This document shows positions 2,502 through 38,252 of a stretch of 64,000 nt of DNA, one piece after another. The first letter of the stretch is position 1. Each line of letters starts with the position of its first letter. This DNA comes from Melastoma dodecandrum (lineage: Eukaryota > Streptophyta > Magnoliopsida > Myrtales > Melastomataceae): the NCBI GenBank assembly GCA_029817715.1, contig JARUPY010000248.1, positions 1,550,001 through 1,614,000 of the forward strand, in the 5' to 3' direction. The translations under genes and the position numbers were made by a program. The notes below the pieces were generated by a model, which had not been told where the DNA came from, searched no databases, and worked only from the letters and a program-made list of their open reading frames with translations.

Positions 2502-3579
2502 TCATGCAAATAAGATGCATCGGCGTTACTCCCCAATCGCCCATATTGGAAAAATATTTCTGTATGCCGAGTAGTTTTGTGTGCAGTTCCTGTTGAACAC
2601 TCCTGTGATCTCCTGCTCGTCACAGAGTAACAAACATGGGATGTTACAGAAAGCACCGGGAATCTGCAAGATAAAGTCAATATCTCAGCAAAAAGAGCAA
2701 GGATTATGCCTGCTGGGGGAAGTCTTCGTCGCTCATCTGTGAATTCATTGGCACTTGGATCCCCCCGATGAATCGGAGTTGGATCCACCTTGCCCTGCCC
2801 TGCATCAATAAGTGCCAATACAGCCTAGGCTATTTGGACAAGATTCGCACGATCGCCATCTAGGTTTGTGTACACTTGCTCGTACCAGATCCAACAGGTT
2901 GGAGTTATCGATGGATGACTCCGGTTGACAGCCATACAAAAAGATAAAAGGAAGGAAGAACATACCTTGTTTTGGCTAGATAAGTAGCTCTCTCCCCGGC
3001 CACCGCATGGTAACTGCTTCGACAACAGAAACTTGCGAGCTTGACGCAGAGTCGAAGAATTTTCATGACTTCTTCCACAAGCGACAAGACCCCTAACAAC
3101 AAACCAAGTGCCGTAGGTGTAGCATATCCCCCAGCATCCATACCATGAGCCATCTGGATTCTGTTTATCCTCAATGTAATGAATCCCGTTGCTTATAGAA
3201 TCTTTGATCTCTCCCTGACGGTGTTGGGGATGCATGTTTTCAAAGAGCATTAGTGCCTGAATCACGGAAGCGGTACACTCCATATACCTGTTTAGTAATA
3301 ATATCGAGCATTAGCAGAAGAACGTACTATGAGAACTCCCTAAATAGAACTCATGAAAATTCAGATCGCTCTTGATTTCCTGATCATACTCTTTATCAAT
3401 GATGACATCCTCAAAGAGCTCCGTTGGGTTGAACAGCTGCAAATCATGAACAAAGATGGGTGATCCGTCTTCAAAGCTCGAAAACCAGAGTAAAAATGGA
3501 ATGATCTCAAGGGATCTGACTTGGATTAAGACAGGCTTACCTCCAACCAAGCATATCCTCTACTTGGCTCCCACGCCGG
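2502..3579 (-). pseudogene. OSC pseudogene, 3' half (end of exon 11 to C-terminus)
   Basis: Exon 11 resumes as AWEPSRGYAWLE before a GT donor at 3,540. Exon 12 (3436-3390) encodes LFNPTELFEDVIIDKE. Exon 13 (3287-2966) encodes YMECTASVIQAL through ESYLSSQNK; its QW repeat reads QLPCGGRGES where the family has GGWGES (CGG at 2998-2996). In exon 14, VYTNLDGDRANLVQIA is followed by TAG (2827-2825) in place of the conserved Trp codon, then a +1 shift before MNSQMSDEDFPQQ. The last exon gives EITGVFNRNC and NIFPIWAIGE, then TAA where Tyr is expected. The next in-frame stop is TGA at 2504-2502, the likely original end. Confidence 0.9.
3575..3579. other. Left target-site duplication GCCGG of the Ogre element
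   Basis: GCCGG directly precedes the LTR start TG at 3,580 and recurs at 23418-23422 after the LTR end CA. Removing 3580-23422 rejoins OSC exon 11 in frame (SKNGGFPA then WEPSRGYAWLE), which proves the site independently. Confidence 0.95.
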
Positions 3580-36567: not shown

Positions 36568-38252
36568 ATGGATCACTTCTACCTTTCCCTCCTCCTCGCC
36601 TTCGTCTCCCTCGTCACCCTCACCACCTTCCTCGTCTTCTACCGCCATGTTTCCCGCTACTCGGGTTCTGCCCTCCCCCCTGGCCGCCCCGGCCTCCCCT
36701 TCCTCGGGGAGACCCTCGAGTTCCTCCGTTCCGGATGGAACGGCCACCCTGAGAAGTTCATCTTCGACCGCATCCATCGCTACTCCGCCGACATCTTCAA
36801 GACTTCCATCCTCGCGGAGCCCGTGGCCGTCTTCTGTGGCGCCGCCGGGAACAAGTTCCTCTTCTCGAACGAGAACAAGCTCGTGACCGCCTGGTGGCCC
36901 GAGTCCATCAACAAGGTCTTCCCTTCCTCGCTGCAGACCTCGTCCAAGGAAGAGGCGAAGAAGATGAGGAAGATGCTCCCCCAGTTCATGAAGCCCGAGG
37001 CCCTCCAGCGCTACATCGGGATCATGGACCACATCGCCAGGTGGCACTTCTCCATGGGCTGGGAGGGGAAGGACGAGGTCGTCGTCTTCCCTCTCGCCAA
37101 GCGTTACACCTTCTGGCTCGCCTGCCGGCTCTTCATGAGCGTCGAGGACCCCGACCACGTTGCGAGGTTCGCCGACCCCTTCAACGTGCTCGCCTCGGGG
37201 ATGTTCTCGGTCCCCATCGACCTCCCCGGGACACCCCTCAACAAGGCGAAGCACGCGGCCAACTTCATAAGGAAGGAGCTGAGGGCCATCATCAAGCAGC
37301 GTAAGATCGATCTCGCAGAGGGCAAGGCCACCGCCACGCAGGACATACTGTCCCACATGCTGCTCGCGACCGACGATGAGGGCAAACACCTGAACGAGCT
37401 CGACATAGCGGACAAGATACTCGGTTTGCTCGTCGGAGGGCATGACACTGCCAGCGCCGCGTGCACCTTCATCGTCAAGTACCTCGCGGAGCTCCCCGAA
37501 GTGTATGAAGGCGTGTACAAAGGTACGTAAAACTCTCGTCTCAACAGCATGTGATTCGTCTTACTTTTAACATTCTAGACTAGTAAAAACTTCATTACCA
37601 CGAGATCTCATAATTTTTTTTACTTTTTAAGAAACTTTCTCGTGATTGTTTCCTCCTCCTCCTCCTCCTTCACGAGAAGTAGCAGCTCGAAAAGTTTGCT
37701 TTCCTTTTCCCGATTTTGTTGTTTTAGAAATTATTTTTACGAGTGTTTTCAACGTCAACAGAGCAAATGGAGATCGCAAAGGAGAAAGCGCCCGGCGAGC
37801 TGTTGAACTGGGACGACATCCAGAAGATGAGGTACTCGTGGAACGTGGCGTGCGAGGTGATGAGGCTCGCCCCGCCGCTCCAGGGGGCGTTCCGTGAGGC
37901 CCTCAATGGATTCATCTTCAACGGATTCTCCATCCCCAAAGGGTGGAAGCTATACTGGAGCGCTCACTCGACTCACAGGAACCCGGAGTACTTCCCCGAA
38001 CCAGAGAAGTTCGACCCGTCGAGGTTCGACGGGAACGGCCCCGCGCCTTACACATACGTCCCGTTTGGCGGCGGGCCCAGGATGTGCCCGGGGAAGGAGT
38101 ACGCCAGGCTGGAGATCCTCGTGTTCATGCACAACCTGGTGACGAGGTTCAAGTGGGAGAAGATGCTCCCGGAGGAGAAGATTGTGGTCGATCCCATGCC
38201 GATCCCGGAGAAAGGCCTCCCCGTCCGCCTCCACCCTCACGCCAAAGCCTGA
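36568..38252 (+). CDS. CYP716A: CYP716A-type cytochrome P450 (triterpenoid oxidase), 481 aa
   Basis: Exons 36568-37522 and 37762-38252 join as AAA G|GTACGT ... CAACAG|AG, giving VYKEQMEIAK. An N-terminal membrane anchor (residues 1-25) precedes the Pro-rich hinge PPGRPGLPFLGE. Other marks are ENKLVTAWWPES, the I-helix GGHDTAS (290-296), ExxR as EVMR (350-353), FDPSRF, and the heme loop FGGGPRMCPGKEYA with Cys427. Length and wording follow the CYP716A subfamily closely; characterised members oxidise beta-amyrin, alpha-amyrin or lupeol, often at C-28, at the ER with a reductase partner. It appears intact. It diverges from the OSC pseudogene, suggesting a shared pathway. Exons are GC-rich, unlike the AT-rich surroundings. 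Regiospecificity cannot be read from sequence. Confidence 0.93.

Follow-up and report, generated by a model that had tools for sequence, protein, structure and literature searches.

Does a dead oxidosqualene cyclase (OSC) gene beside an intact cytochrome P450 gene mark the loss of a triterpenoid pathway, or only the loss of a spare gene copy? The question is raised by a stretch of 64,000 bp of Melastoma dodecandrum DNA (C270:1550001-1614000 of the 373-Mb assembly). This stretch, called the window here, carries an OSC on the minus strand (start at 25971, end near 2502) and a CYP716A gene on the plus strand (36568-38252) as divergent neighbours. A sequence-only reading had taken the pair for a cluster remnant, in which local scaffold formation may have been lost and the oxidase kept, possibly fed by another OSC. 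Our analysis confirmed the head-to-head pair as true and non-random, but the remnant and the local loss were not borne out, as an open sister cyclase, LUS-A, lies just outside the window. The reading that we prefer, with a probability of about three in four, is an OSC/CYP716A neighbourhood in which LUS-A and a second pair on contig C601 can provide the scaffold supply and the dead OSC is a tandem spare that was lost late.

Results

The dead cyclase and the intact P450 of the window

The following gene models were obtained in the window.

2502..3579, minus strand: 3′ part of the dead OSC, by spliced alignment to P0127 (rest of exon 11 at 3579-3541, then 3436-3390, 3287-2966, 2878-2710 and 2612-2502)
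23418..25971, minus strand: 5′ part of the dead OSC, by spliced alignment to P0127, tblastn and tree (exons 1-6 at 25971-25774, 25585-25400, 25315-25226, 25145-24948, 24854-24770 and 24687-24521; exons 7-10 at 24430-24242, 24145-24032, 23950-23722 and 23644-23546; start of exon 11 at 23440-23418)
25972..36567, no strand: intergenic stretch between the start codons (10,596 bp; 4,117 bp minus two transposable elements)
36568..38252, plus strand: CYP716A (exons 36568-37522 and 37762-38252, one intron, 481 amino acids, no internal stop)

The template P0127 is a 757-amino-acid lupeol-clade cyclase of Lagerstroemia. When both flanks of the retroelement that splits the OSC were aligned to it separately, they covered its residues 1-531 and 528-757. 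The models bore out the earlier claim of divergent neighbours, and the pairing recurs, with both genes intact, on C601. A hAT transposon and a solo long terminal repeat (LTR) account for 6,479 of the 10,596 bp between the two ATGs, and the remainder agrees with the spacing of about 4 kb that the sequence-only reading had given after their removal.

That reading had also called the OSC dead, and it is: five lesions were found, namely a deletion/frameshift at about 23761, a Gypsy element inside exon 11, a stop at 2827, a frameshift at about 2761 and a stop at 2528. The gene has no open reading frame, whereas LUS-A and the C601 copy do. The GC splice donors were not counted as lesions because introns 1 and 3 of the intact OSCs on C270 and C601 have GC donors as well. 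Similarly, an extra coding stretch at about 25399-25316 in a second reading of the OSC frame was rejected, as it falls at an intron position of the intact copies. The dead copy occurs once in the cyclase-domain family search of the assembly. The acid-protonating motif of OSCs is DCTAE, and SDCTAEG is present in LUS-A, in the C601 OSC and in the readable part of the dead copy.

The P450 was found intact, as had been claimed, with an open frame of 481 amino acids under constraint. It matched the Pfam p450 family above the cut-off (E 4.1e-58), and the heme-binding FGGGPRMCPG, the ExxR motif as EVMR and the oxygen-binding GGHDTA were read by eye. Protein searches were taken from the best 120 of 2553 (P450), 3626 (cyclase) and 4712 (OSC-B, a second cyclase described below) matches. 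Among those listed, the P450 is 91% identical to a Melastoma candidum protein (the best), 87% to Eucalyptus and Syzygium proteins and 82% to a Lagerstroemia CYP716, and many relatives are annotated as beta-amyrin 28-monooxygenase or 28-oxidase. The CYP716A subfamily is delimited by more than 55% identity to its members (PMC5303825), which the window P450 exceeds while also placing among them. M. candidum MLD38_015177 was rejected as its ortholog, since a CYP716A gene on C587 matches that protein at 475/479 positions; the window P450 is a separate copy, with a synonymous distance (dS) of 0.56 to the C587 gene. CYP716A265/266 of Lagerstroemia oxidise C-28 of alpha-amyrin, beta-amyrin and lupeol (PMC9520826, PMC11718399), and because of these enzymes C-28 oxidation of pentacyclic triterpenes is the likely role of the window P450.

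Selection was measured as branch ratios of nonsynonymous to synonymous change (dN/dS) from three-sequence Nei-Gojobori distances with 500 bootstraps. The ratios were 0.075 (0.039-0.137) for the window P450, 0.155 (0.097-0.280) for LUS-A and 0.196 (0.122-0.316) for the dead copy, and they are rough because the synonymous distances to C601 exceed 1.2. The window P450 and LUS-A are under purifying selection, and the dead copy was constrained through most of its existence.

An open sister cyclase beside the window

A cyclase-domain search of the whole assembly gave 29 matches, of which two more lie on C270 to the left of the window. The cyclases beyond the window edge and the genes of the second pair are as follows.

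C270:1545158-1541500, same strand as the dead copy: LUS-A, a lupeol-clade OSC (15 exons, by splicing to P0127)
C270:1546169-1546487: scrap of another lupeol-clade copy, interrupted by a stop and a frameshift
C270:1538302-1528150: OSC-B, lanosterol-synthase type (L038, L039), broken by one frameshift and by a long insert within an exon
C601:6691735-6686912, minus strand: lupeol-clade OSC, no stop or frameshift
C601:6701059-6702658, plus strand: CYP716A, no stop or frameshift

LUS-A is identical to P0127 at 585/753 positions and has neither stop nor frameshift; its start lies 4.8 kb left of the window edge and about 7.3 kb past the end of the dead copy. The gene order on C270 from left to right is the broken lanosterol-type OSC-B, LUS-A, the lupeol-clade scrap, the dead OSC, CYP716A and a kinase gene, with all four cyclase copies on one strand. 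OSC-B matches M. candidum MLD38_014160 at 96% identity (637 columns), and its insert holds two long open frames at 1532024-1536141 that look Copia-like by eye.

In the trees, the dead copy and LUS-A are sisters (support 99/94); the C601 and M. candidum OSCs attach to this pair (100/100), all within the Myrtales lupeol-clade cyclases. The window copy, LUS-A and the C601 copy nest among lupeol-clade OSCs that include olive OeLUS, apart from the cycloartenol synthase (CAS), lanosterol synthase (LAS) and beta-amyrin-synthase types, and OSC-B groups with the lanosterol-type enzymes. By its sequence relationships, the window OSC is assigned to the lupeol-synthase clade (group H). Nineteen of the 29 cyclase matches (all but L009-L014, L021, L022, L030 and L031) were placed by a quick-method tree. 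Among them, the lupeol clade is found only at C270 and C601/C537, lanosterol types at C270 and C274, and cycloartenol types at C601, C537 and C501, and nine group with the beta-amyrin-synthase reference.

These results bear directly on the view that the lineage lost local scaffold formation and that the P450 survives on an OSC at another locus. Both the OSC nearest the P450 and the lanosterol-type OSC further left are dead, and nine other loci on the beta-amyrin-synthase side of the tree could feed the P450. Furthermore, the 20 kb to the left of the CYP716A gene of C587 contain no OSC and the whole contig gave no cyclase-domain match, and because this gene stands alone a P450 can evidently persist without an OSC neighbour. 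A dead remnant, however, would keep no open scaffold-enzyme gene at its locus, and LUS-A is such a gene, open, on the same strand and with a branch dN/dS of 0.155; at C601 there is in addition a second pair in which both genes are intact. With LUS-A open beside the dead copy, the ground for a local loss of scaffold formation is therefore gone, and we consider such a loss unlikely. The edge of a window can make a dead spare copy look like the loss of a pathway.

A second head-to-head pair and copies of the block

The C601 genes also stand head to head, with starts 9.3 kb apart. The C601 P450 is identical to M. candidum MLD38_006444 at 473/478 positions, and the M. candidum counterparts of the pair carry the consecutive tags MLD38_006445/006444 on equal-sized contigs. 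Contig C537 is 97-98% similar to C601 over most compared stretches (93% over 880 bp) and is probably its other haplotype. In the P450 tree, the window gene sits in one group of Eucalyptus, Syzygium and Lagerstroemia copies; the C601 gene is represented by its M. candidum counterpart, which joins a different Syzygium and a different Lagerstroemia copy. The P450s of C270 and C601 belong to two older Myrtales clades. About 16-20 kb left of the intact pair, at C601:6666066-6670710 (L035), we also observed a piece of a cycloartenol-type OSC with a CYP716 fragment of 54-69% identity to the window P450.

In a P450 search of the same genome, 89/582 candidates were scored and four CYP716A loci reached at least 73% identity; each of the two lupeol-clade loci has one of them within 42 kb, in the same divergent orientation. 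Close copies of the kinase gene that follows CYP716A in the window were found on C274 (96%) and C587 (90%), each beside a CYP716A and likewise following it.

C274:3278349-3278640: CYP716A fragment
C587:2781968-2783952: intact CYP716A

Lanosterol-type OSC signals lie 60 and 83 kb to the left on C274. The intergenic stretch of the window gave no match in the 20 kb left of the C587 CYP716A. The block was copied, and its copies lost different members. One simple reading of this pattern would start from a single cyclase and two P450s at an ancestral locus, which was doubled and then reciprocally trimmed.

Linkage of the two families in other species

Linkage was counted in the 28 species present in both best-120 lists, using rows with a species name and a contig size and an OSC list from which P0121, P0122 and P0128 (joined or not lupeol-clade) had been removed. 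A shared contig was judged from equal-sized contigs in both lists, as a stand-in for direct identity. The lupeol-clade OSC and CYP716A share a contig in 17/28 species, against 4.8 expected if each species has 9 chromosomes (P ~1e-7) or 3.6 if it has 12 (P ~1e-9). The 17 include both rosids and asterids. The other 11 are Durio, Gastrolobium, Gossypium barbadense, Hibiscus sabdariffa, H. trionum, Juglans regia, Lupinus, Neltuma, Reevesia, Shorea and Tetracentron. A shared contig is not adjacency. Ordered tags give the spacing in 4/17 contig-sharing species: 1 step in Melastoma, 2 steps in Bauhinia, about 43-45 in Diplodiscus (if its numbering runs by hundreds) and about 711 in Liquidambar. Adjacency was thereby shown in two, Melastoma and Bauhinia. 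The sequence-only reading had held that adjacency would be chance if related genomes kept the genes far apart; by tags they are distant in Diplodiscus and Liquidambar, and near in Melastoma and Bauhinia.

The chance meeting of two expanding gene families would fit the abundance of tandem duplication and transposable elements at the locus, the 11 species without a shared contig and the wide tag distances in Liquidambar and Diplodiscus. It would leave unexplained the excess of shared contigs, the close tags of Melastoma and Bauhinia and the position of both lupeol-clade loci within 42 kb of a CYP716A locus, and we hold it to be highly improbable.

In the search with OSC-B, sterol-type and lupeol-clade OSCs have close tags in Punica (015918/015913), Juglans regia (013460/013469), Rubroshorea (150070/150110) and Xanthoceras (015881/015884), the sterol-type partner being by tree a CAS in Punica and Rubroshorea and a LAS in Juglans and Xanthoceras. 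The tags are 3 to 9 genes apart in these four species, if Rubroshorea counts by tens. Such closeness suggests an old OSC tandem array. A tentative extension, for which we would claim no more than a minor share of the probability, is that an ancient eudicot module, in which CYP716A and a lupeol-clade OSC have a sterol-type OSC nearby, predates the split of rosids and asterids. In Melastoma it would have been doubled and have kept different P450 partners, one CYP716A clade at C270 and another at C601, and the C270 cyclases would have been retuned by changes of the product-determining residue from L to C and from L to W. Among the best 120 of 3626 cyclase matches no Myrtaceae protein (Eucalyptus, Syzygium, Psidium, Corymbia) was seen and other Myrtales were listed; Myrtaceae may have lost the lupeol-clade OSC while keeping CYP716A.

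The motif of the C270 cyclases and the possible products

The sequence-only reading had leaned on a WCYCR motif. The motif is present in the window OSC, but it is atypical of its clade and the argument drawn from it was misleading. MLCYCR is found in 100/116 listed relatives and in the C601 OSC; the dead copy has FWCYCR and LUS-A has MCCYCR, and neither W nor C stands at this site in any of the 111 listed relatives with a readable motif. The equation of WCYCR with beta-amyrin synthase was rejected, as the trees place the gene in the lupeol clade, to which W is foreign. We take this motif column to be the published product-switch residue.

On this basis, the tandem copies could have switched the residue that determines the product, to C in LUS-A and to W in the dead copy, while the C-28 oxidase beside them stayed constant; the array would then be an evolving source of scaffolds such as amyrins, in which one experiment died. 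The two deviating motifs against MLCYCR speak for it, as does the report that two group-H OSCs are mixed-amyrin synthases (PMC12858397). The W, however, may postdate the death of the copy, and the dN/dS of the dead copy exceeded that of LUS-A in 72% of bootstraps, which decides nothing. Retuning is thus a possibility that we rate as rather doubtful.

Lagerstroemia has an OSC specific for lupeol (PMC9520826, PMC11718399). Given the unusual motif residues of the dead copy and LUS-A, the predicted cyclase product is less sure than the role of the P450.

Discussion

A neighbourhood with a probable spare copy lost late

At both C270 and C601 neighbouring genes of different enzyme families are found, as in a biosynthetic cluster, and they would share a common pathway. 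In the mechanism that we propose, the OSC would cyclise 2,3-oxidosqualene to an alcohol of the lupane or amyrin type, which CYP716A would then oxidise at C-28 to the acid, giving products of the betulinic, oleanolic or ursolic type. The dead OSC would be a tandem spare that worked through most of its existence before its late loss, and LUS-A next door together with the C601 pair could keep up the supply of scaffold.

Several observations weigh against this picture. The end branch of LUS-A in the tree has a length of 0.20, against 0.016 for the C601 copy, and because of this faster evolution and its unusual motif residue LUS-A could be altered in function. No LUS-A-like M. candidum protein is among the best 120 of 3626 cyclase matches. 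Between the intergenic stretches of the window and of C601 no sequence similarity was found that would point to a shared promoter. Beyond Melastoma, the genes of the predicted OeLUS cluster of olive were not co-expressed in the organs studied there (PMC10952584), and a tomato study places no OSC near the CYP716 genes (PMC5278499).

Comparison with known clusters

OSC/CYP716 neighbourhoods are already in print, and the Melastoma locus adds a new, informative example. No conserved head-to-head pair of a lupeol-clade OSC and CYP716A was described in the open-access literature searched, subscription papers being mostly outside it, nor did that search return a relevant title on Melastoma OSCs.

A close parallel is the barrigenol-type cluster of Aesculus with its ancient OSC/CYP716/BAHD syntenic segment (PMC10576086), in which, as in Melastoma, an OSC and CYP716A are adjacent, tandem and whole-genome duplication occurred and members are partial or lost. 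That segment was traced to a CAS-bearing segment to which CYP716A was added in early eudicots, and it is reported as absent in the superasterids examined (PMC10576086), whereas the lupeol-clade/CYP716A contig sharers found here include asterids. The scaffold enzymes differ as well, being a beta-amyrin synthase in Aesculus and a lupeol-clade OSC in Melastoma. Among the BAHD candidates listed (97/285 scored), none lies closer than about 415 kb on C270. BAHD genes were seen at C270:2003156-2030614 and C274:3862114-4133965, about 415 kb and 580-850 kb to the right of CYP716A, and such distant genes on both paralogous contigs could echo the Aesculus segment.

The tirucalladienol cluster of Arabidopsis (PEN3/CYP716A1/CYP716A2, about 47 kb) likewise has an OSC with CYP716A neighbours, but PEN3 is a Brassicaceae-type OSC with a tetracyclic product and the Melastoma OSC is of the lupeol clade (PMC9909608). 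CYP716A genes seldom lie near the clade II OSCs of Brassicaceae (PMC7383575). The predicted OeLUS cluster of olive, with a lupeol synthase, three P450 genes and a CAS-like gene, resembles the Melastoma order of sterol-type OSC, lupeol-clade OSC and P450, although CYP716A48, the known C-28 oxidase, is not reported among its genes (PMC10952584). Lagerstroemia, also of Myrtales and with L. speciosa the source of CYP716A265/266, has P450s (P0005/P0006) in both clades that flank the Melastoma OSCs, and by tree path a Lagerstroemia OSC is the nearest relative from a named species outside Melastoma.

In a 2025 survey, group F (lanosterol-type) and group H (lupeol-type) OSCs were found enriched in predicted clusters, of which none is given as characterised (PMC12858397). 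The C270 locus, its C601 twin and the linkage counts offer concrete candidates with which group F/H clusters can be tested, and the ancient module, if true, would explain the enrichment of both groups.

Transposable elements and the timing of the death

The transposable elements at the locus are as follows.

3580..23417, plus strand: Gypsy LTR retroelement inside OSC exon 11 (19,838 bp; LTR comparison, Pfam)
28365..32049, plus strand: hAT DNA transposon within a TGA-repeat stretch (ends, Pfam)
32167..34960, plus strand: solo LTR with target-site duplication CTCAT

The Gypsy LTRs, one from 3580 and one at 19591 to 23417, are 95.97% identical over 3819 positions, and the target-site duplication GCCGG stands at 3575-3579 and 23418-23422. 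Between them lie reading frames for gag/protease (9371-13453) and pol (13739-17158), with Pfam matches to gag, reverse transcriptase, RNase H and integrase. At substitution rates of 1.3e-8 or 7e-9, the divergence of K = 0.0286 between the two LTRs dates the insertion to about 1.1 or 2.0 million years. At this locus, the rise and the loss of a cyclase next to a constrained oxidase can be dated roughly.

The hAT element has two transposase frames, one with a BED zinc finger (29253-30095) and one with RNase-H-like and dimerisation domains (30151-31398). The last 0.8 kb of the solo LTR is 82% identical to window positions 1634-2400 and about 70% identical to the ends of the Gypsy LTRs.

Other features

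Four OSC copies (L024, L026, L027, L028) that group with the beta-amyrin-synthase reference lie in about 60 kb at C603:4197871-4255260, and the own-genome P450 search, with 89/582 candidates scored, gave no CYP716 match near this array. L009-L014 (C121, C127, C590, C128, C360, C547) are long intronless frames with strong cyclase-domain matches and about 25-36% identity to plant OSC; these are perhaps bacterial contigs in the assembly.

38891..42587, minus strand: protein kinase gene right of CYP716A (exon pieces 42587-41664 and 39253-38891; Pfam, own-genome search)

Residues 5-87 of the kinase exon recur at 84-89% identity in at least five places (C118:1581795, C118:1288652, C432:66555, C41:50682, C433:56249), and the pattern looks like the dispersal of a gene fragment by a mobile element.

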